A stretch of 64,000 nt of DNA. It comes from Hemileia vastatrix (lineage: Eukaryota; Basidiomycota; Pucciniomycetes; Pucciniales; Zaghouaniaceae). The translations under genes and the position numbers were made by a program. The DNA is taken from contig JASXTE010000005.1 of the NCBI GenBank assembly GCA_030280995.1, positions 29,246,501 to 29,310,500 of the forward strand, in the 5' to 3' direction. Of this stretch, positions 666-58,989 are shown piece by piece. The notes under the pieces are model-generated. The model searched no databases. It saw only the letters and a list, made by a program, of their open reading frames with translations, and was not told the DNA's origin. How positions within the stretch are numbered: position 1 is the stretch's first letter; the number at the start of each line of letters is the position of its first letter.

Positions 666-667
666 AC

Positions 668-680
668 TGGGGGCCTTTCC
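668..680 (+). other. Primer binding site, element A
   Basis: TGGGGGCCTTTCC starts two bases after the LTR end. Element C has TGGAGGCCTTTCC (40602-40614) and F has TGAGGCCCTTTCC (31460-31472) at the matching place. The TGG start fits the CCA end of a primer tRNA; I cannot name the tRNA. Confidence 0.65.
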
Positions 681-2638: not shown

Positions 2639-2686
2639 GTTTCTGAGGACAGAAATGTTCTATCTCTTGCAAAATTAAATGACCAG

Positions 2687-5302
2687 ATGTCTGAAATTCC
2701 AAGAATAAAAAACTATGTGTCTGACCTGCAGGAAAAGTTCTCAACCTTAACCATCAATAATGAATTAAATGAGATTTCTGTCAATAAGCTGCATAAAAAT
2801 AAAGGGAAAAAACCTGAACAAAGTTCATCCTTTCTTCCTCATATATCAACCATTAAACAAACTGACAATGAGTCTGTAAAATCTTTTGCTACTAGCAAAA
2901 AATCTTGTGATGGTCATGTACCAGCTGTTTCTGTAAATAATGAAATTTCTGAACACCTGGCTAAACTTCAGGGATTATTAATAATGAATAATTCAAACCA
3001 AAAAGTGGACCATCCCAGTAGTCAGAAAAATTGGCCTAAGTTAGACCAATATCCTACCTTTGATGGTGATTCTTCCTCTGATTGGCAACGCTTTATCCAA
3101 AGAATTGATAATTTAAAGAGATCTTATAAACTACCTGATGAGGAAATTGTTTCTAAGCTAATTTCTTTATTTTCCAATGTAGCCTGGATGTGGTATGAAT
3201 CTGTCCTTTTAGATAACAATCATTATACATGGAATGATTGGAAATCCTTGATTGAGAATCAGTTTGGTGGTTCAAAATTCAGGTTAGCTCAGCAGAGACT
3301 GTATGAGAATACTAGATATGTATCCTCCTCTGTTGAAAAGCCCATTGTTTTTCTGATGAAAATAACTAAAATCCTTAGAGCAATTGATCCAAAGATGGAT
3401 TATGATATTTGGAGAGATAAAATCTTGTATAAATTACCAAATTCTCTTAGGGATTTGATTGTTGCTAGAACTGAGCATGTAAGGGAAAATTCTTCTTTCA
3501 TTAATATCTGTAATGAAGTACTGCTCAACCATAGATATGAACCAAAGAATTACCTTGGTAAATCTTATAATGATCAGAATAAAACTTCTACAAAGCTCCC
3601 AGAAAAATCTGGTAAACCCTCTGCCCCAGTTGCACCTAAAAAATATGCAACAAATACTTGTTATAAGTGTAACAAACCGTGGCAGAAGGGTCATGTTTGT
3701 GACAAGAAAATTCATCTTGTTGAACAAAATGAAGACACTGATGAAGTTGAACTTGATGTCAATAATTCTTCCAGTGACTGTGAAAGTAATATCTCCTATG
3801 ACAATGAATCTGTTAAAGATGTTTTAATGTTGGAACATGATGTCCATTATTTAAATAATATTTCTGAAGATTGTGTATTGAATTTATCTTCAGTAGAAAA
3901 TGCTGAGATAATTAAAGATATTACTAACAATTCTATTCCTATATCCCCTTTAAAGGCACCTGTTATCATTAATGGTAAAAATGTTGATGTAGTTCTTGAT
4001 TCTGGTGCTGGAGGAAGTGTAGTATCTGAAAAAGCTTTGGCTTCAGTGGATAAGGAATATTTGAGTAAATTATTACCTATAACTTCTGAAAAATGGAGAG
4101 GGTATGGTTCTACCTTATTTCCTATTGGCAAATACAAAACCTCTGTATTCTTCAAATATAATGGTGGTTTTGTCAGAGCTGTTTGTGAGTTTGTTGTCAT
4201 GAAAAATGATAATTTAAGTAATTGGTTTATTATGGGAAGTGATATTTTAACCATGTTTGGTGTGAAACTGGACCCAGCAAATAATTGCTTTACCTTAGGA
4301 ATGAATGGGAAAAGAAAATTCGAAATTTCCTCTCCTAGAACTTCTGGGCATTTGTTAAAATCTTGTAACTCACTAATCCAGTGTAAAGGTAGAACAACAA
4401 CTGAAATGGATGATTTAATACATGAAATAAATACCGCTTCTTTTGGTGATCAGTTGACTAGTGAACAAAAGAATTCTATTGTTGCCTCTATTACCTCTTT
4501 CCCTATGTCTTTTGCTCATGGTTCTCATGTCTTGGGAATTGTTCAGGAAGAGATGAAAATTACCTTATCGTGTAATTTGAGTGATATTCCTCCTACCCTT
4601 AAGAAAAAACCATATCCTGCTTCTCCATCAAAAAGAAAAGATATTGAAGATAATATTGAAACATTATTGAAAATGAATATCATTGAGAAAGTGGATGTCA
4701 CTCCCAAATATTGTGTCATCTCCCCAGTCTTGATTTCTTATGAAAAAGATAAAGCTAGATTATGTGGAGATTACAGAGCTTTAAATACTTATACTGTTGA
4801 TGATATTTATCCTTTACCCAGAATTAATTCAATACATGCTACCTTGCAAGGTGCAAAATTTATTAGTTGTCTGGATGGTAATAAAGGTTATCATCAAGTT
4901 CCAGTTGAGAAAAATTCTCAAATTTTTTTGCTTATTGCTACTCATATGGGAATATATAAGTATGTTAGGATGCCATTTGGCCCTAAAAATGCTCCTTCAG
5001 TTTTCCAGAAAGTCATGGATAACACTTTCCATCAAGAAATTATTGAAGGCTGGCTCATGGTTTATATTGATGATATTATTGTTTTTTCTAAAACTTTTGA
5101 TGAACATATGATTCACTTGAATAGAGTTTTCCAAAAAATGGATGAAATCAATATGACCTTATCTTTAAAAAAGTGTAAATTTGGTTTTCAATCTTTGAAA
5201 GTCCTTGGCCATGTTGTGTCAGGCTTACAAATTTGTGTAGACCATAATAAAGTTGCTGCCATTCAGAATGTAAAAGCACCAACTTCTGTAAGAGAAATCT
5301 AA
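2687..5302 (+). pseudogene. gag-pol: Element A capsid, zinc knuckle, protease and RT palm
   Basis: The 871-aa frame holds, in order: a retrotransposon capsid-like domain (residues about 115-290, WPKLDQYPTFDGDSSSDW), a zinc knuckle of the C-x2-C...GH-x-C type (C325 to C338, CYKCNKPWQKGHVC), an aspartic protease centre DSGAGGS at D438, and the reverse transcriptase fingers and palm. RT motif A is LDGNKGYHQV (D730), motif B is FGPKNAPSVFQ, and the catalytic YIDD is at 793-796 (codons from 5063). A TAA at 5300 replaces the CAA seen in element C just after the palm, separating it from the thumb and RNase H. The domains themselves look undamaged. Confidence 0.88.
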
Positions 5303-8781: not shown

Positions 8782-9871
8782 TGTGGTAGCCTAAAGTTTA
8801 GTATGGCACCTAAGTACTTAAATGGAGTTATTACGGTGTGCAAGATTGGCATTATTATTTTTTTATATATAAAAGGGTTTTATTTAATTTATTTGAGTTT
8901 TAAATATGAAGAAATTGGTCATGAGCAAATGCCTACACGAAAACAATTTATTTTACGGAGAAAACTTATTTTTACGGTCTGAAAAATTTATAAGTATCAA
9001 GTCGAGTCACTCAAGAACCTTGGGAAATTTTCCCAGAATTTTTACTATTTTTCTTATATTTTTAAATGAATTTTAAAGTTTTATAGAAATATTTACGTTT
9101 TCAGAAATTACTTAACTTCGATGAATTTTCACGGGGTAATTAGAGCTGCGCAGACTACGAAAATTAGTTTGGTATGTAAAGGGGAAGTAGCTCTATTAAG
9201 TGTACTTTTTCTAGATTTTTATTATAGTTTTAAGGTTCTAATTGAGTCCGGAAGTCCGGACAGACTCCGTACGGGCTCCGGATTGACTCTGGAAGAGCTC
9301 TGGAGGGGAAAACTTAGGCATGTGACTAGGAATACTTAAGCGCTTCTCAAACTCGAAATTGAGAGGGGGGATACATCATAAAGCTTAATCATTGACCACC
9401 ACAGTCTCATTTTTTATTACTCAACAAATTAAATAAATTGTAATACCCTTATAACTTTATATTTTATATATAACATTTTAGAAATACTACTCAACAATTT
9501 AAATCACACTTCATACAGGGTATCTTTAGAAAGGTCTTCATCGCTGGGACTTGATTATTGCTGTCTCATAAAAATTTAAATTATTATAAAAACATAAAAG
9601 TCAATCTTTTCAGACCTTTCACTGGTACACCTTAATTGTTGTTATCAGTATTTCTTTCTCAACAGCCACTTTTATTAAAATCTCAATAAGCGTTAATTAT
9701 TTTAGAGTTTCATTATTTTATCAATCAGATCCAAGTAGATTGGTTAGCTTAGTGATATAAAATTCCCATTTTGTTATTTTTTTATTGGAAGGACAGGGTT
9801 TTCAGCTAAATCCACATATCTCCTCCGGATTCTGCTTACAGCAAGGCAACTGTAAGAGTTTACCTTACCAT
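8782..9871 (+). repeat. 5' LTR of element B
   Basis: The 1090-bp LTR starts TGTGGTAGCC and ends near CCTTACCAT. It is a direct repeat of 19983-21117 with scattered substitutions (a few percent by eye). TATATATAAAAG at 8864-8875 is a probable TATA box. Near 9245-9305 there is a GC-richer cluster built on CCGTACGG and TCCGGA-like palindromes. The exact 3' end is uncertain by one or two bases. Confidence 0.9.
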
Positions 9872-9874
9872 AGT

Positions 9875-9891
9875 TGGCGCCCAACGTGGGG
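9875..9891 (+). other. Primer binding site, element B
   Basis: TGGCGCCCAACGTGGGG begins three bases after the LTR. Element D has the same site with one change at 49282-49298. It is a typical retroelement tRNA primer site; the tRNA is not identified. Confidence 0.75.
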
Positions 9892-10047
9892 TTCAAATTC
9901 TCTAGCTTTCTTTAAAGACTTACTTGGATCAAGAACGTTCTTAGCCTGCAAGAGGCTTATTTTCTGGAACTCTAATTGGATTTTTGTTATTGGCCTGCAA
10001 GAGGCTTGTTATTTTAACGGTTGTTAATGCTTTTCTTATGTTTTGGG
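9892..10047 (+). other. Element B leader with two small hairpins
   Basis: This is short untranslated sequence between primer site and gag. Two hairpins of the same design are present: AGCCT-GCAAG-AGGCT at 9942-9956 and GGCCT-GCAAG-AGGCT at 9991-10005. The outer pair changes from A-T to a G-T wobble. Confidence 0.5.
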
Positions 10048-11229
10048 ATGTCTTCTACTAGTGGAACTGCTGTGTTGGCTTCTGGTGTACCTGTTAGAGC
10101 ATCAGTAAGGATTGTATCTTGGGTTGGGCCCAAGTTTTCTGGAGATGATTTAGAAGGATTTTTACATAGGTATGAAACTGCAGCTGCGATTGATGGTGCT
10201 TTACCTTTGGATATGGTGAAGCAGATTAGGTTCTTTATTTTGGAAAGAGAGGTGGAAAAGGAGGTTATTTCTATGGATGGTTATAAAGATCAAGATTGGA
10301 AAAATCTCAAGATGGAAATGGAAAAAAGGTGGCCAAAAGTTTATTCATTGGAGGATCTAAAGGATATAGCTAGGAAATGGGAATCAAAAGGTGGTGTAAA
10401 ATCTCTGCATCAGTATCATCAGTTTATGGTTGAATTTCAGGTGGTTCTGGATTATTTGTTGGAGTATGAAATTTTATTTCATGATAATGCATCAAAGTAT
10501 ATTTTTTGGGATGCTATGGGGGAAAAGGTTAAGAAAGATGTTTTGATGGTGCTTATTAATGCGAATTTAATGAAGGATTGCCCAGATGGAGAAACTAGGA
10601 TTCCTGGTATGGAGGTGCTAAAGAAGGCTATTTTAGAACATCTGGATACTCATAATTCTGTTGATTTGGACTCTGGAAAAGAGGTTTTTCTTGCTCAAGA
10701 GATAGAAGAGGGCGGTTTAGAAGAATTAGCTTCTGTTGAATTTTTGGAATCAGCCATTCCTGAAGATTTTGTCCAGCCTGAAGATATTATTTTTGTTAAC
10801 AATTCTGTTGGGAAAGAAGAGATTTTTGAAGATGAAGATATTGTTGTCATTAATGACAAAATTTTAGATGATGGGGATAATTTTGTGTTGAATGATTCGA
10901 AATCGGATTTAGAGGATTTTTTGCCTCAGGTTTTTTCTTCAGAAGCAGAGACTGTCTGCAATGAAGATATGGATATGGTGGATTTTTTACAATCTCAGGG
11001 AGAGATTGTTAAGGAGGATATGGTTTTCCCTGCACTAATAAAGAGTGTAGTGGTATTTGATAATAGAGTGCATAAATTGGATGCACTCATATTTTGGAAA
11101 AAGGTTGTTTATTTTTTATGTCCAATGGTAGGACAAATTATGGGGGTTTATTTTTGGGTTTTATGGAATCGGTGGATAAGCCCTTGGGGCAAAATTATGG
11201 ATTATCTCCAGGGGATATCAAGAATTTAA
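10048..11229 (+). CDS. gag: Element B Gag (capsid), no zinc knuckle
   Basis: I chose ATG 10048 (MSSTSGTAV) because it aligns with the D start MASGSS at 49369; the frame is open a little further upstream. The product is about 393 aa. Residues about 20-200 (PKFSGDDLEGFLHRYETAAAIDG, DMVKQIRFFI) match D Gag and look like a retrotransposon capsid. The C-terminal half is very acidic (EDEDIVVINDKI) and ends in a Trp-rich hydrophobic stretch. No CX2CX4HX4C knuckle is present, although D has one (50235 onward). It lies directly behind a short leader, so it is probably the first translated protein. Confidence 0.8.
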   Translation: MSSTSGTAVLASGVPVRASVRIVSWVGPKFSGDDLEGFLHRYETAAAIDGALPLDMVKQIRFFILEREVEKEVISMDGYKDQDWKNLKMEMEKRWPKVYSLEDLKDIARKWESKGGVKSLHQYHQFMVEFQVVLDYLLEYEILFHDNASKYIFWDAMGEKVKKDVLMVLINANLMKDCPDGETRIPGMEVLKKAILEHLDTHNSVDLDSGKEVFLAQEIEEGGLEELASVEFLESAIPEDFVQPEDIIFVNNSVGKEEIFEDEDIVVINDKILDDGDNFVLNDSKSDLEDFLPQVFSSEAETVCNEDMDMVDFLQSQGEIVKEDMVFPALIKSVVVFDNRVHKLDALIFWKKVVYFLCPMVGQIMGVYFWVLWNRWISPWGKIMDYLQGISRI

Positions 11230-11231
11230 TT

Positions 11232-11253
11232 CCTCCGAAATGAGGATAAACTA
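11232..11253 (+). other. Hairpin-TAAACT motif after B gag
   Basis: CCTC pairs with GAGG around a six-base loop CGAAAT, followed by ATAAACTA. It begins three bases after the gag stop and is the first of about 25 copies in B. Confidence 0.6.
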
Positions 11254-11285
11254 CCTAAACTGGGCTGAAATTTTCTTTTATTGTT

Positions 11286-13001
11286 ATGTCTTCAATTTAT
11301 TCAGGATTCAAATTATTATGGATGCCCTCATTTTTTGGGGTAGCAGGGGCTGATCACTCTAATGTTGTAATCTCTCCTCAGGATGAGATCCCAGATTGCA
11401 ATAGGTCAGCTCACTTGGAGATAATTCAAGTGGATTCTCAATTATTTTCTGTTAATATTACTTTTGAGTGCAAATATGTTTTGGACTTTTCTATATGTTT
11501 ATTGGATTTACCCGGTTTTTCTATTAAATTTAAAAACGGTGAAAAAGGCAAAATGGGCCAAATTAGGTTGGATAAAAATTGGAAGGGTATGTTCGATAAC
11601 CTCCAGCAAGAGGGTAAACTGCGAAAATCTCATCAAAAGTCGATTAAAAATCTCAGTATAAGTAAAACACAAAAAAATAATTTTTGTGAAAATTCAAATT
11701 CGGGCCTCCAGCAAGAGGTTAAACTGCAAGTATCTCCTTCTATTATGGACCTCCAGCAAGAGGGTAAACTGCAATTATCTCATCAAAACCTGATTAAAAA
11801 TCTCAGTATAATAAAAACAAAAAAAAATAATTTTTGTGAAAATGTTATTCCGGACCTCCAGCAAGAGGGTAAACTGCAAAAATCACATCAAAATCAAATA
11901 AAAAATCTCGGTATAATTAAAACACAAAAAAATAATTTTTGTGAAAATTCAATTCCGGTTCTCCAGCAAGAGGTTAAACTGCCAACTTTCTTTATGGGTG
12001 ATTTACTGTTGGATAAGGGAAGCAATAGTGTTGGAAAATATGTTTATAAATTAGACAAGGGAAAGGAGAAAAGGGTAAAATTTAAAAATGAAATAAAATA
12101 TTTTTCTAATTTTTCTTATTCTGATTCTGGCGATGAAGAAGATTCATTTGATGAAAGTTTTAATGGCGGTACAAAAGAAAATGTTTTACCTCAACTTTAT
12201 TTAGATGTGGACGCAGCCAAATATAAGAAAGTAGCAAATAAAGTTTGACCTATTAATGAACCGCTACCTGCTGAATTAAATCCACCTTTGAGAAGACCAA
12301 GGTTATCAAGAGATCCTTATGAAAGTCCCTTGGTAAAGAATCCGCCTGAATTTTCTGAGACGTCAAGAATCACTTTTGAGAGACTGGGTGTTGTTAATTT
12401 TGGACCTGATGGTTGGTTGTCTGGGGAAGAGAAGAAGTTGTTGTTGGATGTGATGGTCAAGCGAGAGAAGGCCATTGCTTTTGTAGAAGAGGAGAGGGGT
12501 GTGTTGAAGCATTCCTATGGGGAGCCTTACAAGATTCCTGTGGTATGTCATGAACCGTGGCAGCAGAAACCAATTCCTATTCCGGCTGCATTGAAAGAAG
12601 CTTATATTGAAGTTGTCAGAGAAAGGATACACACTGGACTGTATGAGCAATCAACATCAAGTTATTCTAGTCCGGTATTTTGTATCAAGAAACCGAATGG
12701 CAAGCTTAGAGTTGTTCATGATCTAAGGGAATTAAATAGGGTTACAATAAAGGATGCTAGGATACCACCTAGTGCTGAGGAGTTTGTTGAAGCGTTTTCA
12801 GGGAGAGTGTGTTATGGTTTGGGAGATATTATGGGTGGATATGATGAGAGAGAGTTACATCCGGACTCAAGGCCTCTCACTACATTCGATACGCCACTTG
12901 GACGTTTACAGTTAACAAGATTACCTCAAGGAGCAACAAATTCGGTTGCAGTTTATCAAGATCAGATGGCTTGGATCCTTCAAGATGAAATTCCACAATA
13001 T
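11286..13001 (+). pseudogene. pol: Element B linker region and RT N-terminal half
   Basis: One frame runs from 11286 through a single TGA at 12246 (where D encodes Arg) to the CACTA-like insertion at 13002. The first 320 residues are a low-complexity, partly repetitive linker containing several LQQEGKL units, unlike any enzyme. After the stop come RT sequences: VCHEPWQQKPIPIP, SSYSSPVFCIKKPNGKLRVVHDLRELN, motif A LGDIMGGYDE and motif B LPQGATNSVAVYQ. No DSG or DTG protease centre in a plausible context is visible between gag and RT. A start codon for this frame is not clear. Confidence 0.75.
11598..11985 (+). repeat. Coding tandem repeats carrying hairpin motifs
   Basis: Five copies of CCTC or TCTC, loop CAGCAA, GAGG and TTAAACTG or GTAAACTG lie at 11600, 11705, 11750, 11855 and 11960 (starts). 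They are embedded in imperfect repeats of about 105-150 bp that encode SHQN-IKNLSI-KTQKNNFCEN. The reading frame is kept across the repeats. The stem is unchanged apart from one T at its first base (11960), compatible with a wobble pair. Confidence 0.8.
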
Positions 13002-13888
13002 CACCACGCAATATAGGGGGAGGACTTGCTAGCAAGTCCGCAACTTGAAGTCAGATGGAAATCAGATGGAACTCAGACTGAAGTAATACTGAACTTTCAC
13101 TTGAAGTATCACACAAATAACAATGGATCTATATTGAAAACATAGTGAAAGTGTGAGGATAACTGAATGGAAGCCAGAAAAAATCATTCCATGAGTCTAC
13201 TCAATGCAAAGTATTTTTTGAAACAGCTTATTAAAATAATACTTTATTAAATTAATTTGATCAATAAAAATTGATTGACAATATTGCAATTCTTAAATAC
13301 AATAATTTTATTAAAAAATTTCAGATTACATATAAAAAAAATCAGTGACTTTTTCTATTACTTACAACTGTTTTTACAGAATTGAAAACTATGTTTCAGC
13401 TAATATTTTATGGAAGTGAACTCTGTTCTTTGCCCGAAGAACAGAGTTCATCCTCCTATTTTCACACTCTGTTTGCACCAATCTCCATCCCTTTCAATTC
13501 TATCAACACATGCTTGTCTTCCCTTCCCATGCCTTTCGCTATCCTCCCAGCCCCATTGTATGCCATCCTCTTTTGATCCCCATTTCACCCCTCTCAACCT
13601 CTCCCAGACCCTTTTCTTCATTTAAAATGCCTCGGAACCCTTAATCTTCCCTTCCAACTCTTTCCCAACCTTTTCGCTACCCCATACACCCTTCCTCACC
13701 CCTCTCTCCAGCCTTTCCAGCCCTTGTAGCCCCATTTGTGTTCACATGAGCTTCAAGGTGTGTTCAAAGTAAATTCAATACTTCTTCATGATGGTTTCAT
13801 CACTTCCTCAATGTGTGCTCAAAAAGATATGAATTAGGGTTCAAGGTTGCGGACTTGCTAGCAAGTCCGCCCCCCATATTGCGTGGTG
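13002..13888 (+). mobile_element. CACTA-like nonautonomous DNA element, 887 bp, in B RT
   Basis: Terminal inverted repeats of about 47 bp begin CACCACGCAATAT and include the perfect palindrome GGACTTGCTAGCAAGTCC. The flanking TAT is duplicated at 12999-13001 and 13889-13891. Without the element the RT frame closes exactly (DEIPQY then AGIFIDDGG), as in D. CAC...GTG ends with a 3-bp duplication resemble CACTA/CMC elements, and two shorter relatives here start CACTAC. No transposase is visible. A perfect 13-bp stem with a 6-base loop lies at 13418-13449. Confidence 0.8.
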
Positions 13889-13891
13889 TAT

Positions 13892-16564
13892 GCTGGAATC
13901 TTTATAGATGATGGAGGAATTAAGGGACCAACAACCGACTATGATAACCAGGTGTTGGAAGAGAATCCCTGGATACGCAAATTCATTTGGGAGTTTGCAA
14001 TTACATTAGAAAGAATCTTGTTTCGAATTGAAGAGGCTGGGTTAACTATTTCAGGCTCAAAATTTTCCTGTTGTGTGCCAGCCTTAGAAATATTAGGCCA
14101 TGTGGTATGTAGAGAGGGTAGGATTATGTCCAAGAAGAAAGTTAACAAAATTCAGTCCTGGCCAAGACCCAAGAATACGACCAAAGTTAGAGGGTTTTTA
14201 GGCGTTTGCGTATATGTTAGAATGTTTATCAAGGACTTTTCTTCATTGGCAGCTCCATTGAGATGGTTAACGAGAAAGGATGCAGACTGGGAGTGGGATG
14301 AAGAGTGTGAGAAGGCGTTTGTGAAGTTGAAAGAGGTTGTAGGGAAGGATTTAGTCCTGCACAAGTTGGATTATGGAAAAGATGCTGGTAGAATTTATTT
14401 AGCAGTTGATTCAAGTCAGATTGCAGCTGGGGCGGTTCTGTCTCAGATGGATAAAGCTGGTTACATCAGGCCAGTTAGGTATGAATCTGTAGTATTTACT
14501 GAGGTAGAATCAAGATATTCTCAACCAAAATTGGAATTATGTGGTGTGGCGAGAATACTGAAGAAACTTCAGCATATTTTGTGGGGGCAACATTTTGAGT
14601 TGCAAGTGGATGTGAAATCGTTAATCCAGATGATTAATTCCCCAAGTTTACCTAACACACCCATGACAAGATGGGTAGCTTTTATTCAACATTTTTCGTT
14701 TGATTTAGTTCATAAGTCTGGCAAGACTTTTACTATGCCAGATGGTTTATTGAGGAGCCCACCCACTGAAGAAGATTCAGACTCAGAAGAGTTCGATGAA
14801 GATATACCTATTATCAAAGCCAGCACTAAAGGAGCTGAAGACTTTCCATACCTCCCCCATGAGGTTAAACTGGCAGGACTATTGTGTTTAGATTATGATA
14901 ATGATGACCTCCACCAAGAGGATAAACTGGAAAATAGTTTTTATGTTAATAAAGGTGTTGGAAAAGGTGTAGATAAGTTCGGTAGAGAGGAGGTAGAAGA
15001 AGATGTGGTGTATGTAGAGGAAGATAGATTGGTAGTGTGGGATAGTAGTAATTTAAGGAATGGTGTATATATTGGAGAATTAGAGAATTTAAATAAAAGG
15101 GTGGATAAAGAGAAAGAGGTATTTTCAAATACGGTTTACGAAGGATCCAAAGGTTCAGAAGAAAAACGACGACATAGCTCGATTAAAGATTTATTTAGGG
15201 GTCAACGATTATTGGCTCATTCATGTGCAGGTGATATTGGTGATAGAGAAGTCCCTATTGATGTTATATTAATTGATTTTCAAGATGAAGTCTGGGGTCA
15301 GACTGGTTTTTATTTTTTATTAGTCAAATATTTGTTGACATTAGAGAGGCCAGAAGATTGTGAAGACGATGAATGGGTGGCTATCAAGAGGAAGTCATCT
15401 ACGTTTTATTTATCTGGTCGACGTTTAATGAGGAGAAGGTATCCAAATCCTCAAGTAGTTATAACTCAAGAGAAGGGGCAAGAATTAGTTTTGAAATCAC
15501 TGCATGAAGATCTCGGGCATAGAGGCGTTGGAGAAACGTTTAGAAGAATTTCTGATCGATTTTGGTGGCCTGGCATGAAGATGGCTGTTAAACAGTGGGT
15601 TCAGTCATGCGAAGAATGTCAAAGAGGAAGTTATTTAAGGCCAAAAGAACCTGGAGGCGCGACCGGTGAATATACGCTCTTTGGGAGAGTTAGTTTAGAT
15701 GCTGTTCATATAAAAGAGGGACGGTATAAATATTTAATTGTGGCCAGAGATGATTTATCTGGTTGGGTAGAGGCAGCGCCTCTTATTGATTTAACTGCCA
15801 AAAATGTGGCAGAATTTTTTTTGAATAATTGGGTATATAGGTATGGGGTGATGAAGTTGGTAACGGTAGATGGAGGTCCTGAATTTGGTACAGAGTTTAA
15901 AGAGGCCGTATTGAAAGTTGCATCAAAGGTTAGGGTAGCAACCCCATATTATCCCGAAGCTGAAGGCATGGTTGAAAGAGGGCATCAAGTTATTAAGGAT
16001 GCTTTAGTTAAAATGTGTGGGACAAGTGCCGAAAAATGGAGGCACTATTTACCTTTAGTTTTATTTGCTGATCAAATCACTGCCAAAAGGACGACCGGAT
16101 TTTCACCTTATGAACTTGTTTTTGGACAGAAAGCAGTTTTACCGGTTGATTTAGAAGCTGAATCATATCGTGGAGTTGACTGGGACACGGTCAAAACTAC
16201 TGAAGAATTATTGTATGCAAGAATGATGCAGCTAGAAAAGAAAGAAGAATATTTAGAAAAGGCATATTTGCGGATGATGAAGATCCGAAATCAATCAGTC
16301 AGATATTGGGATGAGCGGTTGGCACATCGATTAAGGAAACCTTTGAACCCAGGTGATATGGTCCTGGTGTATAATAGGAGTTTGGAAAGTCAGTGGGGAA
16401 AGATTTTTGCAGATAGGTGGAATGGACCGTATAAAATCAAGGAGCAAGTTTCCGGCGGTTCATATGTGCTAGAAGAGTTGGATGGAGTAGTATTGAAGAA
16501 GAGGGTAGCAGCCGATCAAGTGAAACGGTTCTATCCTAGAGGCACCAGGAGTGCCGAAGTCTAA
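13892..16564 (+). CDS. pol: Element B RT C-terminal half, RNase H and integrase
   Basis: This is an open frame of about 890 aa. It starts at the DNA-element boundary, so it has no native start codon of its own. The RT active site is FIDD (AGIFIDDGG), followed by LEILGHVVCREG, the connection RGFLGVCVYVRMFIKDFS, and RNase H (YLAVDSS, ESRYSQPKLELCGV, MPDGLL). A linker holds two more hairpin motifs. The integrase zinc domain is HEDLGH...CEECQ. Core catalytic residues lie in SLDAVHIKEG, TVDGGPEFG and AEGMVERGH. A GPY module (RWNGPYKIKE) is near the end. There is no chromodomain. All catalytic residues I can check are present. Confidence 0.88.
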   Translation, partial: AGIFIDDGGIKGPTTDYDNQVLEENPWIRKFIWEFAITLERILFRIEEAGLTISGSKFSCCVPALEILGHVVCREGRIMSKKKVNKIQSWPRPKNTTKVRGFLGVCVYVRMFIKDFSSLAAPLRWLTRKDADWEWDEECEKAFVKLKEVVGKDLVLHKLDYGKDAGRIYLAVDSSQIAAGAVLSQMDKAGYIRPVRYESVVFTEVESRYSQPKLELCGVARILKKLQHILWGQHFELQVDVKSLIQMINSPSLPNTPMTRWVAFIQHFSFDLVHKSGKTFTMPDGLLRSPPTEEDSDSEEFDEDIPIIKASTKGAEDFPYLPHEVKLAGLLCLDYDNDDLHQEDKLENSFYVNKGVGKGVDKFGREEVEEDVVYVEEDRLVVWDSSNLRNGVYIGELENLNKRVDKEKEVFSNTVYEGSKGSEEKRRHSSIKDLFRGQRLLAHSCAGDIGDREVPIDVILIDFQDEVWGQTGFYFLLVKYLLTLERPEDCEDDEWVAIKRKSSTFYLSGRRLMRRRYPNPQVVITQEKGQELVLKSLHEDLGHRGVGETFRRISDRFWWPGMKMAVKQWVQSCEECQRGSYLRPKEPGGATGEYTLFGRVSLDAVHIKEGRYKYLIVARDDLSGWVEAAPLIDLTAKNVAEFFLNNWVYRYGVMKLVTVDGGPEFGTEFKEAVLKVASKVRVATPYYPEAEGMVERGHQVIKDALVKMCGTSAEKWRHYLPLVLFADQITAKRTTGFSPYELVFGQKAVLPVDLEAESYRGVDWDTVKTTEELLYARMMQLEKKEEYLEKAYLRMMKIRNQSVRYWDERLAHRLRKPLNPGDMVLVYNRSLESQWGKIFADRWNGPYKIKEQVSGGSYVLEELDGVVLKKRVAADQVKRFYPRGTRSAEV
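14861..14929 (+). other. Two hairpin-TAAACTG motifs inside B pol
   Basis: Copies at 14861-14882 (loop CCCCAT) and 14908-14929 (loop CACCAA) have CCTC/GAGG stems within the RNase H to integrase linker. Element D keeps one at the corresponding place (53907-53928, loop CCCCAA). Confidence 0.7.
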
Positions 16565-16776
16565 CTCCGAAATGAGGATAAACCACAATTTTAATGACTT
16601 TTATTAAATTTATACCTCCGCAATGAGGATAAACTATGACATTTATGAAATTATATGGATACCTCCGCAAAGAGGATAAACTATGATATCGACAAAATTT
16701 TATGGATTCCTCCGCAATGAGGATAAACTATGATGTTTATAAAGACCTTATTGACCTCCGCAACAAGGATAAACTA
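16564..16776 (+). repeat. Array of five hairpin motifs after B pol
   Basis: Starts are at 16564, 16615, 16662, 16709 and 16755, spaced 46-51 bp. Three have perfect CCTC/GAGG stems with CGCAAT or CGCAAA loops and ATAAACTA tails; the first and last each lose one pair. The first sits across the pol stop. D keeps one degenerate copy at its pol end (55464-55485). Confidence 0.78.
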
Positions 16777-17734
16777 TATTCTTTATATCAAAATGCTTTA
16801 CTGTCGTTTCACTGTATATGGGCAAAGAAACTATGATGAAACTTAACAAAATGCAAGAAAACCTTCTTTTAAATTTTCGAAATTTAAAATTCTTAAAATA
16901 TGGGTGAAGATAGGGTTGGAAAATTTTTTAAAAATTTATTGGAAGAAGTGTTCACAGGGGAACCTTCTTAATTTAATATTGGCAAGTGTGGGGGTAATTT
17001 ATGGGCTGGCTGCTCTATACACAATTACCCCATAATGTTCGTTTCCAAAATTTTCCCTGTTTCTAGTTGAATCCTGGCTTTGTCTTTTAATTATAGGAAG
17101 TCCACTAAGACTATAAACTGGAACGAATCAAGAGACACCGCTCTCAACGCCGGATTCAAGATTCTTTTTATTTTATTTTGTTTTTGATTTTTTTATGTTA
17201 GATTGTGATTTCTGTTCTTTAATATATATTATGAATTATTGTAAAGGTGATGCTCACTGGTGGTCTCTAATCATTTTTATAAATTGGAGGGAGCCCACCC
17301 AGTGATCATCATTATAAAATTTATCTTCTAAAAACTTTCATTTAATTTCTTTTCTTTTCAATTTCTCAAAATTGTGTAACCACATCAAGTTGCACTTGGA
17401 TGTGGGTATGATGTCGAGGGTACGGCTCATCAAATGGCCGGGGGGCATCTTTTAAAATTTTATTTTATAAAAAATTTTTTATTACTTTTTTTTATCTTTC
17501 TTTAAAAATTAAATTTTAACTTTTATTTCAAAACTATCTTCTTTTTTTTTTAAAAAAAAAAATCTTTTATTTTAAATAGTAAAATAAATAAATAAAAAAA
17601 ATAATAATAATAAAAAAATAAAATAAAATAAAAAAAAAAAAAAAAAAAAGGTATTTTAGTTTTAGGTAGTTTAGATGTTTATATTTTATTTTTCTAACAT
17701 TATTCAAGAAAGCTACATACCAGGAAGAACACCA
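16777..17734 (+). other. B 3' region: stem-loops and A/T tract, no gene
   Basis: No ORF is credible here. Stem-loops shared with D are at 16990-17031 (GGGGTAATT/AATTACCCC), 17380-17405 (CCACAT+CAAG paired with CTTG+ATGTGG) and a conserved block at 17255-17325 around CACTGGTGG...CCACCCAGTG. One hairpin motif with stem AGTC/GACT lies at 17099-17120. From 17455 to 17650 the sequence is low-complexity A/T ending in an A run. Confidence 0.65.
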
Positions 17735-18747
17735 TCAAGGGTTGTTATCTTTTGAAGAATCGAAATTAGAAAATTTAGAAGGACCTTGATCGATTTCCTG
17801 GGATTTGAATCTTATTTCACGGTCACGATAGTGTTGAAGCCAGTTGGCTATTTTGAAAAGGTCTCTTAACAGTTGCTCTCTCATCCAAGATTCTGATCTA
17901 TCAGAGGGCGGGTATCGTTGGAAATAAGCGATAAGGTTATTAAAATTAGCAAAAAGCTTTTCAGACACTAGGTGAATTGGAACTCTAGGGAAGCTTGGAT
18001 TAGGTTCTGGTAGTTCATAAGCTGAATATGAAATTGGAGAACCGGTGGACGCTTATCAAATTAAAATATCAGCAAATTAAAACCTGAAGATTAAGAAATA
18101 AAAAGAGACAACTAACCTGTGTCAACACTATCATGATCATAGATAAACGGTTTACTTGGTAATGGAGTGGGATTTTTTATGTTTAGGAAAGGATTTTTTA
18201 TTTTTGATAGATGAGGAGGACTGGTGTTGGATTTGGTGTTTGAAGTAGATGTTCTGGGCCTTTTGGATGAAACAAGAGAAGATGAAGACTGCTGGCTATT
18301 ATAGGACCTTTTATGCTTTAAGATGTTGGAAGAAGGAGAAGAATTGTTAGAAGGTTGAAGCATGGCCCTGGGAGCAGCAAGAGTTCTTGGGGGAGTAGCA
18401 GCAAGTCTAGATTGGAGAGAAGGACCCAGAGGATTAGGTGATGGAGAAAGATTTAAATAGGCTGATGGAGAAAAAGGTATGGGATCTTTAGAGTTTGATG
18501 GAATAGGGGGTGGAGTAGAAGGTGAAGAAGAAGGAGGAGGATTGCAGAAGGCGGCGAAGCTAGTAGCAGTAATGGGGAAAGAACCACAGTTCAAGCCAGA
18601 ACATTTTCTTTTCTTCTCATAGCAGGATAAACAGGCCCTGTTATAAGTGTGCTTTTGCCAGTTAAAAGAGAAGATACATTCCCTATGGGTGAAGGCACAA
18701 TATTTGCAAGATTGATCAGCTGAAGCAATGAAGTCAGAAGGTTTCAT
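17735..18747 (-). CDS. Antisense gene of element B, spliced, Zn2Cys6-like protein
   Basis: ATG 18747 opens exon 1 (18747-18117). A GTTAGT donor and GATAAG acceptor, with a GCTGAT branch-like site, bound a 65-bp intron (18116-18052). Exon 2 (18051-17735) joins in frame to a TGA. The product is 315 aa and intact. N-terminal cysteines C14, C17, C24, C39, C42 and C49 have CX2CX6CX14CX2CX6C spacing, as in fungal Zn2Cys6 DNA-binding clusters, but the basic half (CLSCYEKKRKC) is second rather than first. A Ser/Pro-rich middle has a KRPR basic patch. The C-terminal part is helical and charged (NNLIAYFQRYPPSDRSESW). It is probably nuclear and DNA-binding; that is inference. D has two relatives. Confidence 0.75.
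18052..18116 (-). other. Intron of the B antisense gene
   Basis: The intron is 65 bp, GTTAGT...AAG, with CTGAT about 20 bases before the acceptor. Removing it joins two ORFs in frame, total coding length divisible by three. The relatives in D have introns at the equivalent boundary between the basic middle and C-terminal domain. Confidence 0.72.
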
Positions 18748-18841
18748 CTTGTTAGGAGATATTTTTTTGAAGAAGAAAACTTGAAACTAGGATGAAGAAA
18801 GCTGGTGGCAAAATCTGGGTTCAAGGATAGAGAAGTTGTTA

Positions 18842-19309
18842 GGTCCACCAAGACCCTAAACTGGACTATTATCAAGCTGTTGGGTCCACCATGACCTTAA
18901 ACTGTATTTCTTATCGATTAAATGTTTGGTCCACCATGACTTTAAACTGGTAGTTCATTCATTGTTTAGTCCACTATGACTTTAAACTGGAAAATTAATA
19001 TCTGCAGGATAATTCAACATTCATTGGTCCACTATGGCCTTACACTGGATTACTTGTCGATCAAATGTTTGGTCCACTATGACATTAAACTGGATTATCA
19101 AATTTATTCAATCTTTGGTCAAGCCTAGGCCTTACTTAGGAATTTATCAAGTTATTTATGCACCTAAACTATCTTTGGTCCACCAAGACCGTAAACTGGC
19201 AATCGATTATATGTTTGGTCTACCAAGACTTTAAATTGGAATGTCAATCTTGTTTGGATAACTCAATTCAATCTTTTAATTTATCACTGTCCACTATGAC
19301 TCTAAACTG
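18842..19309 (+). repeat. Array of about nine hairpin-TAAACTG motifs
   Basis: Copies start at 18842, 18883, 18928, 18968, 19026, 19071, 19177, 19217 and 19288, with a very degenerate one near 19117. Stems are GGTC/GACC, AGTC/GACT and wobble forms, loops are CACCAA, CACCAT or CACTAT, and tails are TTAAACTG or similar. Spacing is mostly 40-60 bp. The array lies just upstream of the antisense gene start, so it is also that gene's likely promoter or leader region. Confidence 0.78.
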
Positions 19310-19969
19310 GTTATTCAATTATTTCTGGAATTGGGTGCTGATAAGCTTTAGGAGGTTAAAATTTTAGGTGGTGATGATGCTAATGAAAGCATAATGGTTA
19401 ATTAGGTGAAATTTGTGGCGCTTTAACATGGTCTAAAGTTGAAATTATTATTGGAAGCCTGGAAAAAGTATTTTATTGGTTTGCTGTATAGCAAAGTTTG
19501 AAAATTGTGATGAAGGAATCAGAAGTTAGGATGGTAGTTGGATTTTAGGGAATGATTTTTTTTAGTGCCTCATAGTTAGGCCATTTTTTTTTTGGTGTGA
19601 AGCTTGGAGGACCTTATGGCGAGATTGGAATCATAGAATTCGGCTCAGTGGGGGGCCCTATGAGGTTGGAATCAGGAGTATTCGGCTCATAGGAAGATCC
19701 ACTCTCTCAATGCTGTGACAAGAAGGAAGACTGGTATATGGGAGTCTTAAGGGATTCAAACCTTGCTCTCAGTAGTGGAATCATCACAAGATTTATATTA
19801 TTTTATTTTATGTTATATCAAGCCAGAGAAGAAGAAACAACGTTTTTATTATCAAGAATTAAAAGAAGACCAGCTAAAACAAATTTATCAAATTACTTTA
19901 TTGGAAAAGATAATTCTTTTGGAATTGCTCAACCACTTATGCAAAGTTATAAGAATGGGGACATTCTCA
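19310..19969 (+). other. B 3' region before polypurine tract, nothing recognised
   Basis: There is no motif or convincing ORF. A short frame at 19738-19995 runs into the LTR and lacks any family signature. The last bases before the tract (GGACATTCTCAATTGG) are shared with D. Confidence 0.5.
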
Positions 19970-19982
19970 ATTGGAGGGAGGA
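19970..19982 (+). other. Polypurine tract, element B
   Basis: ATTGGAGGGAGGA abuts the 3' LTR; element D has TTGGAGGGAGGA at 59666-59677. Confidence 0.78.
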
Positions 19983-21117
19983 TGTGGTAGCCTAAAGTTT
20001 AGTATGGCACCTAAGTACGTAAATGGAGTTAATACGGTGTGCAAGATTGGCGTTATTATTTTTTTATATATAAAAGGGTTTTATTTAATTTATTTGAGTT
20101 TTAAATATGAAGAAATTGGTCACAAGCGAATGCCTACACGACAACAATTTATTTTACGGAGAAAACTTATTTTTAAGGTCTGAAAAATTTATAAGTATCA
20201 AGTCGAGTCACTCAAGAACCTTGGGAAATTTTCCCATAATTTTTACTATTTTTCTTATATTTTTAAATGAATTTTAAAGTTTTATAGAAATATTTACGTT
20301 TTCAGAAATTACTTAACTTCGATGAATTTTCACAGGGTAATTAGAGCTGCGCAGACTACGAAAATTAGTTTGGAATGTAAAGGGGAAGTAGCTCTATTAT
20401 GTGTAATTTTTCTAGATTTTTTATTATAGTTTTAAGGTTCTAATTGAGTCCGGAAGTCTGGACGGACTCTGTACGTACTTTGCTTTGACTCCGTACGGAC
20501 TCCGTTCCGACTCCGTACGGGCTCCGGATTGACTCTGGAAGAGCTCTGGAGGGGAAAACTTAGGCACGTGACTAGGAATACTTAAGCGCTTCTCAAACTC
20601 GAAATTGAGAGGGGGGATACATCATACAGCTTAATCATTGACCACCACAGTCTCATTTTTTATTACTCAACAAATTAAATAAATTGTAATACCCTTATAA
20701 CTTTATATTTTATATATAACATTTTAGAAATACTACTCAACAATTTAAATCACACTTCATACAGGGTATCTTTAGAAAGGTCTTCATCGCTGGGACTTGA
20801 TTATTGCTGTCTCATAAAAATTCAAATTATTATAAAAACATAAAAGTCAATCTTTTCTGACCTTTCACTGGTACACCTTAATTGTTGTTATCAGTATTTC
20901 TTTCTCAACAGCCACTTTTATTAAAATCTCAATAAGCGTTAATTATTTTAGAGTTTCATTATTTTATCAATCAGATCCAAGTAGATTGGATAGCTTAGTG
21001 ATATAAAATTCCCATTTTGTTATTTTTTTATTGGAAGGACGGGGTTTTCAGCTAAATCCACATATCTCCTCCGGATTCTGCTTACAGCAAGGCGACTGTA
21101 AGAGTTTACCTTACCAT
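19983..21117 (+). repeat. 3' LTR of element B
   Basis: The 1135-bp LTR is 45 bp longer than the 5' LTR, and the difference is an expansion of GACTCCGTACGG-like units near 20461-20525. The TATA box is at 20065-20076. Confidence 0.9.
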
Positions 21118-21122
21118 AACGT

Positions 21123-29469: not shown

Positions 29470-29470
29470 T

Positions 29471-49277: not shown

Positions 49278-49281
49278 TTTC

Positions 49282-52200: not shown

Positions 52201-55200
52201 TTAATGAGGCTATGACTGTGGGTTTGAATCCCCCTTGAAGAGACCTCTTTTGTCAAGAGATCTGTACTGTACTCCTTTGGTGAAGAATCCTCCAGAATTT
52301 GTAGAGAAGGATAGGGTGACCATGGAAAGGATTAAGGTTGTTAATTTTGGTCCTGATGGGTGGTTGTCTTAAGAAGAAAAGAAGTTTTTGTTGCACATTA
52401 TTGTGCTAAGGGAAAAGGCAGTAGAATTTGTTGAGGAGGAAAGGGGTGTATTGAACCACTCTTATGGGGAACCTTACTTGATTCCCGTGGTTTGTCATGA
52501 ACCTTGGCAAATCAAACCTATTCCAATTCCAGCCGCTATTAGAGAGGATTTTGTGGAGTTCATTAGGTAAAGAGTCAGGACTGGGTTATACGAACAATTG
52601 ACATCCAGCTACTCAAGTCCAGTTTTCTGTGTAAAGAAGCAGCATGGGAAGTTGCGGGTGGTTCATGATCTTAGAGCCTTGAATAGACTCACTATCAAGG
52701 ACACTGGTATGCCACCAAGTGCAGAGGATTTTGTTGAAGCTTTTGCTAGAAGGGTGTGTTATGGTTTGAGTGATATTATGGGTGTTTATGATGAGAGGGA
52801 ACTTCATACGGATTCAAGGCCTCTCACAATTTTTGAGACTCCTTTGGGAAGATTTCAACTCACTAGGTTGCCTCAAGGAGCAACTAATTCAGTGGCAGTT
52901 TATCAAGCATGGATGGCTTGGATTTCTCAGGATGAGGTTCCTACTCATGCTGATATTTTTATTAATGATGGTGGAATTAAAGGACCATCCACTGATTATG
53001 GTAATGAAGTGTTAGCGGAGAACCCTGGCATAAGGAGGTTTGTATGGGAATATGCAATAACTCTAGAGAGAGTGTTGTTTAGGATTGAAGAGGCTGGTTT
53101 GACCATTTCAGGGTCAAAAATCTGTTGTTGTGTTCCTGCTTTGGAAATTCTGGGTCATGTGGTATGTAAAGAGGGAAGGATTATGGCAAAAAAGAAGATT
53201 AATAAAATTCAGTCATGGCCAAGGCCTAAAAATACTACTGAAGTCAGGGGATTTTTGGGTGTATGTGTATATGTCAGGATTTTTATTAAGGATTTTTCTT
53301 TGTTGGCTTCACCTTTAAGGAGGTTGACCTGAAAAGATGCAGATTGGGAATGGAATGAAGAGTGTGAAGAGGCTTTTCAGAAGTTGAAAAAGGTTGTTGG
53401 TGAAGATATGGTTCTTCACAAGTTGGATTATGCTGTTGGTGCTGGAAAATTTATATGGCAGTAGACTCAAGTTATATTGCTGCTGGTGCAGTTTTGTCTC
53501 AGGAAGATAAAACTGGGAGGGTCAGGCCAGTAAGATATGAGTCTGTGGTGTTTAATGAGGTGGAATCTAGGTATTCTCAACCTAAGTTGGAATTGTGTGG
53601 TGTAGCAAAAATTTTAAAGAAGCTACAGATGGTTTTGTGGGGGCAGCATTTTGAGCTGCAGGTGGATGAAAAATCTTTAGTTAAGATGATCAATATGCCT
53701 AGTCTTCCAAATGCTCCAATGACTAGGTGGGTGGTATTTATTCAACCTTTTTCTTTCAACCTGGTACACAAACCAGGTAAAACCTTTACTATGCCTGATG
53801 GATTATCTAGGAGGCCACCAACAGATGAAGATTCTGAGGCTGAAGAGTTCTATGAAGATGTTCCAGTGGTTAGGGCCAGCACAAAGGGTGCTGAAGATTT
53901 TTCTGACCTCCCCCAAGAGGCTAAACTGGCTGGATATGATCTTGATTCTGGTGATCAGGATGTTTTTGTTGATGAAGATGGAGTTGTTGTTTGGGACAGC
54001 TCAAATTTGGAAAAGGGTGTTTTTGTTAGTGAACTGGATTCTCACAAGGTTCAGTGGAAAGAGAAGGACGTGCCAAAATTTGAGGATTTGTGTCCTGGTT
54101 GGGCTGCTCAATTGGCTCATGTTCATAATGGTGATTTTGATGACAGAATTGTACCCTTGGATGTTGTTTTGTTGTATTTTGAAGATGAGACCTGGGGTCA
54201 GTCTGGGTTTTATTTTATTTTGGTGGAATATCTGTTGACCTTAGAGAGGCCAGATAGTTGTGATGATGATACTTGGTTGGCAATCAAGAAGAAGAGTCCT
54301 GCATTTTATGTGTCAGGAAGGCGGTTGATGAGGAGGAGACATCCAAATCCTCAAGTGGTGGTGACTCAGAAGAAGGGTCAAGAATTGGTTTTGAAGTCTT
54401 TGCATGAAGAGCTTGGTCATAGAGGCTTTGGGGAGACTTATAGAAGTGTAGCAGACAGATTTTGGTGGCCAGGTATGAAGTTGGCTGTGCAGGGTTGGGT
54501 TCAATCTTGTGAAGAATGTCAAATAAGAAGTCATTTGAAACCTAAAGAGGTGGGCCGTGCTACTGGTGAATCAACGGTTTTTGGAAGGGTCAGTCTGGAT
54601 TCTGTCCATCTTAAAGAGGGCAGGTCAAAATACTTGATTGTTGCTAGGGATGATTTGTCTGGTTGGGTTGAGGAAGTGCCTCTGGTTAATTTGACTGCCA
54701 AGAATGTGGCAGAGTTTTTGAAGAAGGAGTGAATTTATAGGTATGGGTTGATGAAGTTGGTGACTGTTGATGGCAGGCCAGAGTTTGGTGCCGAATTTAA
54801 AGAAGCTGTGGCTAGTATTGGTTCTAAAGTTAGAGTGGCTACACCATATTATCCTAAAGCTAAAGGCATGGTTGAAAGAGGCCATCAAGTTATCAAGAAC
54901 GCTTTGGTGAAGATGTGTGGAGATAGTGCTTAAAAGTGGAGGCATTATTTACCCTTGGTGTTATTTGCTGGTAGGGTCACTGTGAAGAGGACAACTGGAT
55001 ATTCTCCTTATGAGTTAATGTTTGTTCAAAAAGCCGTTCTACCAGTGGACTTGGAAGCTGTCTCTTATCATGGAATTGATTGGGATGACGTGCACTCAAC
55101 AGAAGATTTGCTCTGTTCCAGAATGCAACAGTTAGAATGTAGAGAGGAATGTCAAGAGAAGGCATACTCTAGAATGATGAAGATTAGGTATCAATCATTC

Positions 55201-55463: not shown

Positions 55464-55512
55464 ACTCTGCTATGAGGATAAACTATGGAACGTTCTTTTT
55501 GTTTTTGTTTTT

Positions 55513-55548: not shown

Positions 55549-56761
55549 GTGTTGCAGAGCAACTTTTGTGTTGGAAACTTTTTGTTAGAAGGTACCCATG
55601 GGTGGGGCTTCTAGATTTGATCTTGGTAAGTGTAGGGGTGACTGATGGGCTGGCTGCTCTATCAACAGTTACTTCAGATTGTCTGTTTCCAACCCTTTCT
55701 CTTAATTTTTTTGAATCCTAGTATTGGTTTCTTTTCACAGGTTTTAGTCCTTTATGACTTTAAACTGGAATTTCCTTTGGTTTTCAAGTTCTGGACTCGT
55801 AACTCTTATTGGTTTGGGTTTATTGTGTTGGATGTTGTGTTTTTGTTAGACGGTACCCAGGGGGGGGCTTCTAGATTTTATTTTGGCAAGTGTGGGGGTA
55901 ACTGATGAGCTGGCTGCTCTGTAGAACAGTTACCCCAGAATGTCTGTCTCAAGTCTTTTGTTTTTCCTAGTTGAATTCTTATTCTGTTGTTTATTATTCA
56001 GGTTTCAAGTCCACTTTGACTTCAAACTGGTTTGGGACTGGCTTCTTTATCTTTGGTTCTTTCGGATTGGTGGTGGATCACCGGTGGTCTCCCATCATTT
56101 TTACTTATTGGAGGGAGCCCACCCAGTGATCATTTCTATGGACTGGGCTATCTCTTATTGGACAATCTATGGAGCTGGGATTTATTGATTTTGTAGTTAT
56201 GTTTTTGATAGATAGTAGTTTTAGATTATTCTTTTTTTTTCTTTTTTTTTCTTTTAATTTTTTATGGGGGTTGTTTAAAATTATAAAATGAAAAATATAG
56301 GGTGTTACCACATCAGGGTCACCTGGATGTGGGCAAGCACTGGTGGGGGAAGGCTCATCAATTGACCGGGCAATGCTATTTTCATTTTTTCTTTTATTTA
56401 TTATTTATTTCATTTGTTTCTGTGTTTCATTATTTTTATTATCTTCTGAATTTCTAATTTTTTTGTTTTTTGTTTTCTGTTAATCATTAAAAATATTTAA
56501 TTGTGTATCCACATCAAGGTGCACTTGGATGTGGGTAAGGTATCAGGGGATCAGCTCATCAATTGGCTGGGGGATACCTTTTGTATTATTTTTTATATTA
56601 TATTTTATTTCATTTATTTTTACTTTTATTTCATTTTATTTATCAATTTTTAATTTTAGTATATGAGTAGTAAAAAAAAAAAAAAAAAAAAAAAAAACTC
56701 TGAAATTATTGTTATTAATTCTTTTATATTATTAATATGTTTATAATATTTTTGCAGGAGC
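55464..56761 (+). other. D 3' region part 1: stem-loops and homopolymers, no gene
   Basis: Hairpin-TAAACTG motifs are at 55464-55485 (degenerate), 55746-55767 and 56008-56029. GGGGTAACT-type stem-loops are at 55635-55675 and 55895-55936. CCACAT-type stem-loops are at 56308-56332 and 56509-56534. There is a run of 44 T at 55514-55557 and 26 A at 56672-56697. ORFs here contain homopolymers and have no family signature. Confidence 0.65.
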
Positions 56762-58465: not shown

Positions 58466-58645
58466 AGTCCATCAAGACTTTAAACTGAAATCTGGTTTCT
58501 GTTAGGCCTCCAAGACTTTAAACTGGCTGGTTTCAAGATTTTATCAAGACTAGTCCGTCAAGACTTTAAACTGAACACTGTGTTAGTCCCCCAAGACTAT
58601 AAGCTGAAGATTGTTGTTAGTTTAGTCCCCCAAGACTATAAACTG
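58466..58645 (+). repeat. Array of hairpin-TAAACTG motifs, D
   Basis: Good copies lie at 58466, 58552, 58585 and 58624 (starts) with AGTC/GACT stems and loops CATCAA, CGTCAA or CCCCAA. A shortened copy is at about 58505. The array lies just upstream of the antisense gene 1 start, as in B. Confidence 0.75.
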
Positions 58646-58989
58646 AGGAACGGGTTTTGTTGTTGATGTTGGTTTTGAAAGATTGGTGAAGGGTATCCAC
58701 AGGGGGAGCCTCCAAATTTAGCAAAGGCAGGTTTGGGGGTAATTGATGGGCTGGAAGCTCTATTTACAATTACCCCAGATTGTTAGTTTTTTCTCTGTGT
58801 CTTAATATGGTTGATCTCTGGCTCTGGGTTTATGATTTAGGTTTTTGAGTCCCCCAAGACTTTAAACTGAGGGTTTTTGAGTCCCCCAAGACTATAAAAT
58901 GAGGATGGTCCCCCAAGACTTAAAACTGAGGGTTGTTTGTGGTTACATCCTATAAAGGGTGTGGTCAATTTTTCTTTTCTGAATCAAAC
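58646..58989 (+). other. D spacer between antisense genes
   Basis: It holds the third GGGGTAATT/AATTACCCC stem-loop (58736-58776) and three more hairpin motifs at 58848, 58880 and 58907. No ORF is present. Confidence 0.65.

Follow-up and report, generated by a model that had tools for sequence, protein, structure and literature searches.

Several described RNA elements resemble the motif reported here. In passages of PMC3835772, the P1-P2 frameshifting pseudoknots of the luteoviruses Beet western yellows virus (BWYV), Potato leafroll virus (PLRV), Pea enation mosaic virus-1 (PEMV-1) and Sugarcane yellow leaf virus (ScYLV) are described as having a first stem (S1) of 4–5 bp, a second one (S2) of 3 bp and extensive loop-stem contacts. 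Among long terminal repeat (LTR) retrotransposons, the Gag protein of Ty1 favours Ty1 RNA bearing a correctly folded pseudoknot, as stated in part of PMC8396678, and untranslated region (UTR) or POL sequences are needed for the packaging of Ty3 RNA, according to passages of PMC4974528 that also describe the structure of Ty3 RNA as uncharacterised and the packaging sequences of such elements as not precisely defined. Here we analyse a 64-kb stretch of Hemileia vastatrix DNA (contig JASXTE010000005.1, positions 29,246,501 to 29,310,500; the window), which contains two related Ty3/gypsy LTR retrotransposons, B (8782-21118) and D (48204-60751). Both carry many copies of a 23-nt motif that, judging from its sequence, is almost certainly under selection as an RNA structure of the sense strand.

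Assignment of B and D to Ty3/gypsy was based on their LTRs, the order reverse transcriptase, RNase H, integrase, and Ty3-like sequence. The pol domains were identified with Pfam as RVT_1, RT_RNaseH and Integrase_H2C2, and the integrase piece of B matched the integrase chains of Ty3 and foamy virus. Aligned pol stretches of the two elements are 72–76% identical, and LTR identity is 94.1% in B and 97.0% in D.

The motif consists of a 4-bp stem (S1, bases 1–4 with 11–14), a hexaloop and an NTAAACTR tail. By direct reading, 23 copies were found in B (11232 to 19309) and 12 in D, all in the gag-pol sense; those of B lie behind gag, in the linker, within pol, behind pol and in the 3' region (Table 1). 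A preliminary description of this DNA had reported about 25 hairpin-TAAACTG copies in B with this orientation and in these regions, of which everything stands except the count. Two classes were distinguished by base 22, which is G in the main class and A in a minor one (A22).

Pairing in S1 was assessed with the 35 window copies (33 distinct). Stem cells were paired in 95.5% of cases vs 73.4% in shuffles, and the covariation score was 0.516 vs 0.146, with none of 500 shuffles reaching either value. Two other covariation measures were unexceptional in the same copies (pairs changed on both sides, 2 vs 2.0; further pair types, 6 vs 5.4). The paired stem changes beside a constant loop and tail, as claimed before, were thus recovered, limited to the two outer pairs, with T3-A12 and C4-G11 being nearly invariant. 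A larger set was obtained from the genome assembly (747.6 Mb, 791 contigs), in which 20 further elements, stretches of about 10 kb, were chosen, not drawn at random, from genome-wide exact matches. A strict pattern found 287 copies in them, and because bases 1, 2, 13 and 14 were left free in the search, pairing of the outer stem constitutes a fair test. Both outer pairs were standard in 246 of the 287, the combinations being AG/CT (104), CC/GG (99), GG/CC (24), GG/CT (15), AC/GG (14), GG/CA (7), TG/CT (7), TC/GG (4), CC/GT (4) and others (9). The A-C counterpart of the G-U form GG/CT, namely AG/CC, did not occur among these copies, and the outer pairs of the 166 distinct sequences were G-U or U-G 10 times, A-C or C-A never. 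Presence of G-U without A-C points to the sense RNA as the level at which selection would act. Taken alone, S1 is weak: the energies predicted for five examples ranged from -1.9 to -5.2 kcal/mol.

In the main class, loop bases 7–9 can pair with tail bases 21–23 to form S2. The resulting layout is of the H type, in which L1 is C5-N6, base 10 lies between the helices and an A-rich six-base loop, N-UAAAC (15–20), crosses S1. S2 was complete in 21 of the 35 window copies, compared with 5 for the runner-up loop-tail helix; taken alone, its cells were paired in 80.8% vs 70.7% after shuffling (0/500), with a covariation of 0.249 vs 0.150 (1/500). As column covariation alone was too weak for S2, owing to subfamily history, the analysis was extended to flank clusters, shuffled tails and synonymous sites. 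Among 124 distinct main-class sequences, 89 had a complete S2, whereas 1000 rounds of tail shuffling gave 56.5 on average and 67 at most, and when one sequence per flank cluster was kept, 27 of 34 were paired at 7-23 (permutation p 0.0005). Over the 287 copies, this position was C-G in 144, G-C in 47, C-U in 29, U-A in 28, C-A in 20 and otherwise in 19. Distinct main-class sequences with C7 and A23 had G24 in 15 of 17 cases, so that a bulged pairing would be possible in them. Moreover, S1 and S2 types were found in several combinations (CC/GG with G-C 17 and with C-G 12; AG/CT with C-G 25, U-A 15 and C-A 14). Pairing of the loop with 3' sequence, accompanied by covariation, was seen for the main class only and not for the A22 class. 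Main-class copies very probably form a compact H-type pseudoknot; the hairpin of the preliminary description is retained, but its tail had been under-read, since the invariant tail of the main class would take part in this fold.

In the elements examined, the motif keeps to the sense strand. Counts by rule (at least 6/7 of the tail and four pairs) gave 19 sense and 0 antisense copies in B (shuffle mean 1.0, maximum 4) and 12 sense and 0 antisense in D (mean 0.55, maximum 2), the latter set not being identical with the 12 curated copies. Elsewhere, the same rule gave none on either strand in element A or at 60201-64000, and two sense and one antisense at 20991-48100 (shuffle mean 1.6). Exact TAAACTG occurs in B 16 times in sense and twice in antisense; a 4-bp stem accompanies 13 of the sense copies and neither of the antisense ones. 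A covariance model was trained on the 23 copies of B, which it matches by construction. At E up to 1 it recovered all 12 D copies (the weakest at E 0.03 to 0.1), and in the window neither the minus strand nor any sequence beyond the two elements gave a match at this threshold; it is to the window that the motif's absence outside the element family applies. Genome-wide, CCTCCNNNNNGAGGNTAAACTG, which represents one stem type, had exact matches at 16,036 sites of one strand and 15,833 of the other (31,869), with 0 and 0 for a reversed control. In the 20 chosen elements, 287/287 strict matches were in the pol sense, and those of each locus lay on a single strand, that of the longer pol match (two loci, L115 and L116, also carry a shorter pol match on the opposite strand). 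When up to two mismatches were tolerated, a set of 22 elements that included B and D had 395 matches in sense and 16 in antisense, and 15 of these 16 had two mismatches. The B-trained model gave 127 matches at E up to 0.1 in 10 elements not of the B type, all of them sense and 0 antisense. The covariance-model search proposed with the preliminary description agrees with its statement that copies always follow the gag-pol sense, and for the window and the 20 further elements an equal share of copies on the two strands can be ruled out.

Constraint was also detected at synonymous sites. At the pol copy starting at 14851, which has a counterpart in D at 53907, the same codon was used in 72 of 74 comparisons with a conserved amino acid, vs 0.56 of 7009 elsewhere in the open reading frame (ORF), and its 7-codon window ranked fourth among 776 for synonymous conservation; 13 of 21 elements entered this comparison, those more than 85% identical to B being left out, and many local alignments stop just behind 14851. 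At the second pol copy the codon was kept in 11 of 12 cases. Cores were then compared with flanks at sites located by the flanks alone (139 site comparisons), a set that replaced an earlier core-to-flank ratio of 0.18 biased by the motif filter. Cores of B differed at 19/858 coding sites vs 320/2340 in flanks, and at 47/1166 non-coding sites vs 433/3180, and coding cores of D at 1/88 vs 40/240. It is because of covariation, strand bias, synonymous constraint and this conservation of B cores that we regard selection on the sense-strand RNA structure, as suggested previously, as close to certain.

Other results weigh against these conclusions. The non-coding cores of D were as variable as their flanks (137/946 vs 375/2580) in a set that is visibly misregistered. 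At orthologous sites, single changes in S1 left 20 pairs broken and 11 paired and double changes 9 broken and 0 paired; the corresponding values for S2 were 13 and 12, and 3 and 2. Inner S1 pairs included seven C-A and one U-G, and for S2 alone in the window the number of further pair types was unexceptional. In a scan of all column pairs, 7-23 ranked fifth, and the non-structural pairs 2-14 and 14-23 were among those scoring above it because subfamilies share history, which inflates covariation. The A22 class lacks S2: among its 40 distinct sequences, 28% were paired at 7-23 and 5% at 8-22. Many copies of the motif are probably decaying.

Table 1. Motif copies and predicted folding modules in elements B and D (window coordinates).
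Feature	Position	Strand	Element	Predicted pairing
A22-class copy just behind the gag stop (11227-11229; gap 2 nt)	11232..11253	+	B	
Five main-class copies in frame in the gag-pol linker ORF; starts 11600, 11705, 11750, 11855, 11960	11600..11981	+	B	S2 = G7-C23
Two main-class copies in pol, RNase H to integrase interval; starts 14851, 14908	14851..14929	+	B	
Five A22-class copies: 16564, whose first base is the final base of the pol stop codon, and array 16615, 16662, 16709, 16755	16564..16776	+	B	
Main-class copy 3' of structured module X	17099..17120	+	B	
Nine main-class copies, degenerate array upstream of antisense ORF; starts 18842, 18883, 18928, 18968, 19026, 19071, 19177, 19217, 19288	18842..19309	+	B	
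Main-class copy in pol, same place as B 14851	53907..53928	+	D	
A22-class copy on the stop codon ending pol	55464..55485	+	D	
Two main-class copies (55746, 56008), each 3' of a module X copy	55746..56029	+	D	
Eight main-class copies near antisense ORFs; starts 58466, 58504, 58552, 58585, 58624, 58848, 58880, 58907	58466..58928	+	D	
Module W, gag-pol interval	11347..11412; D about 51732-51800	+	B, D	31 pairs, 0 broken, 4 changed on both sides (2 sequences)
Module X, 3' of pol	16975..17040; D 55624-55694, 55884-55954, 58712-58785	+	B, D	20 pairs, 1 changed on both sides, 1 broken (4 sequences)
Module Y, 3' of pol	17215..17335; D 56050-56165	+	B, D	24 pairs, 1 changed on both sides, 0 broken (2 sequences)
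Module Z, 3' of pol	17360..17460; D 56290-56390, 56490-56590	+	B, D	22 pairs, 4 changed on both sides, 6 broken in one sequence

Four further modules with predicted hairpin folds, W, X, Y and Z, are common to B and D, W being the best supported and Z, whose covariation term is slightly unfavourable (+0.23), the least. A loose pattern for X matched 17 of the 20 loci, 15 of them with a strict motif 98–105 nt 3' of an X, and 22 of the 32 X matches had the motif at this distance behind. An intron made of X and the motif was considered and rejected, as its ends were inconsistent between copies, and so was reinitiation at the AUG of the A22 loop, as this AUG is not constant among copies. Three stretches of pol (15206-15239, 15344-15364 and 15611-15634) have very high synonymous conservation between subfamilies and may hold further RNA elements. 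An insert with 43-nt inverted ends, 95% complementary, lies within B pol (13002-13888), and a GCCTGCAAGAGGC hairpin, a stem-loop unlike the main motif, is found twice 3' of the 5' LTR (9937-10010). Outside both elements, a tandem array with a 10-bp period occupies 29325-30500, with 101 overlapping register copies and several frames open on both strands. Antisense ORFs were observed 3' of pol in B (18112-18786, minus strand) and D (57965-58471, minus strand). A six-cysteine, zinc-cluster-like C-X2-C-X6-C spacing, presumably that of the fungal zinc cluster family, occurs in the B antisense ORF, which was matched in 7 of the 20 loci and always antisense to pol, and in a motif at 59587 (minus strand) near the 3' LTR of D.

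Judged from sequence, the motif is a cis-acting RNA module of the sense strand (mRNA or genomic RNA) in this Ty3/gypsy family. Its many copies, spread from the gag stop to the 3' end and kept as spacers change, would offer multivalent sites to one RNA-binding protein. This protein would recognise the folded unit by its fixed bases (UCC, A9, GA and UAAACU) and bind repeatedly along the RNA, and such multivalent binding seems reasonably likely. The likeliest protein would be the family's own Gag, in which case the array would mark full-length RNA for selective packaging and assembly. Gag constitutes an economical candidate because of the pseudoknot preference of Ty1 Gag and the dependence of Ty3 packaging on UTR or POL sequences in the sources cited above. 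No CCHC motif and, by Pfam, no protease were found in window B, while D has both; in two upstream stretches of B-type elements a CCHC motif is present, with a 54–56% match to the gag-protease piece of D. The stretch 10018-12248, where the gag of window B is without a detectable CCHC knuckle or Pfam protease, also has a TGA at 12246 in the pol frame. That window B nevertheless keeps the motif set would fit a cis-acting signal served in trans. Recognition by Gag for packaging, named as one possibility in the preliminary description, is plausible and the leading functional reading, although as a specific claim it is tentative; the whole explanation, from sense-strand module to multivalent array with Gag and packaging as the most likely use, is put forward with a little more confidence, still short of probable. 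A broader version, in which Gag, or else a host protein that is recruited, would read up to about 25 pseudoknots per element together with W, X, Y and Z as a self-identity packaging code, is rather doubtful.

Packaging meets several difficulties. No copy was found in LTR, leader or gag, which is where retroviral packaging signals usually sit. Passages of PMC4974528 report that Ty3 could do without nt 429-4979, most of its interior, in trans assays, and that work with mutants failed to demonstrate that the Ty1 pseudoknot has a part in encapsidation. As no copies precede the gag stop (in B and D by the covariance model, in elements L131 and L132 by the strict pattern) and others sit on stop codons, mRNA protection is the main rival: a host RNA-binding protein would be recruited to the long stretch behind the gag and pol stops and protect it against nonsense-mediated decay or deadenylation. 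A precedent is provided by the stability element of Rous sarcoma virus, which acts behind the gag stop. One copy of window B is placed immediately behind its gag stop, and in 11 of 22 elements the final base of the pol-end stop codon is also the first base of an A22-class copy (filter: first bases AC, at most one mismatch). Of the 17 AC-start copies listed, 11 begin there, so that the stop codon can explain their A-G mismatch. However, the gag-stop copy is not general, being absent from D (covariance model) and from L131 and L132 (strict pattern) and seen in the window-B type only; most copies are distant from any stop, many lie within coding sequence, and the strict sequence and structure would be more than a loose shield requires. 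We thus consider mRNA protection unlikely. The same holds for another protein-bound RNA role, such as nuclear export, localisation or translational control, e.g. of pol or a subgenomic RNA, which shares the sequence and strand evidence with packaging and would accommodate the structured neighbours W and X at a fixed distance to a motif copy, but no evidence here singles out one such role. For a -1 frameshift stimulator of the luteoviral type, neither a conserved slippery heptamer nor another recoding signal was found at a fixed distance, the upstream columns of the 35 copies carrying about 0.5 bit or less, and most window copies fall outside coding overlaps.

Explanations that dispense with RNA fare worse. 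The stem halves are inverted and could be read as a DNA site with a 6-bp spacer for a dimeric protein, possibly the antisense-encoded C6 zinc-cluster protein, since the 3' arrays lie upstream of the antisense ORFs with that cysteine spacing; but the half-sites co-vary while the asymmetric loop and tail are fixed, the outer pairs show G-U intermediates and no A-C, loop and tail covary, and copies are also located in pol and the linker, so that a DNA-level site is quite improbable. Absence of any function, with tandem duplication and gene conversion spreading paired changes inherited in a few subfamilies, would account for the regular array spacing (40–47 nt and 45/105 nt), the subfamily structure within the covariation and the fact that recent changes are seldom compensated. 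Conservation of B cores while flanks diverge, synonymous constraint in pol, strict orientation and the sharing of one loop and tail by three stem types all argue against it, and it appears most improbable.

Searches for relatives gave little. Prokaryote contigs with the CC/GG pattern were rejected as relatives (64 stretches, 63 with a single match and one with a double, about chance by estimate), and viral contigs gave 7 and 9 stretches. Six of the 80 prokaryote and viral loci had at least three relaxed matches, both strands summed, and none more than four; two pol pieces searched in viral contigs gave no confirmed relative. Rfam 15, which includes small riboswitch pseudoknots, had 0 matches in the window at gathering score, and a permissive search gave two in B, far below that score. 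No description of such a motif was found in literature titles and abstract beginnings, a search in which subscription journals were mostly uncovered.

Compared with known systems, the geometry is that of the luteoviral pseudoknots, as far as the consulted passages describe them, and the motif falls in the same size class; its use differs, as elements hold as many as about 25 copies each, often outside coding sequence. L1 of the luteoviral pseudoknots begins with a conserved C, as does that of the motif. Like the multiple dispersed packaging signals of RNA viruses, the motif is a single RNA shape with a common recognition sequence that recurs along a genome, on the strand that would be packaged; unlike them, its copies are near-identical predicted pseudoknots in an LTR retrotransposon and putative sites of capsid-protein contact. 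The Rous sarcoma virus RNA stability element likewise follows the gag stop of a retroelement and has a long region downstream, but it is not known to be a repeated pseudoknot, and a gag-stop copy was seen here in the window-B type only. Ty1 also has a pseudoknot in its RNA, bound preferentially by Gag, which in the relevant parts of PMC8396678 and PMC4974528 is one long-range 5' structure, whereas here many local 23-nt units lie 3' of gag. Being short, abundant and fixed in strand and in sequence code, the pseudoknot offers a directly testable candidate packaging signal for Ty3/gypsy RNA, and its natural copies, which number tens of thousands in a single genome, form a rich data set on the evolution of RNA pseudoknots. 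If the packaging reading is true, packaging would here depend on dispersed pseudoknots and not, as in retroviruses, on a signal in the 5' leader.

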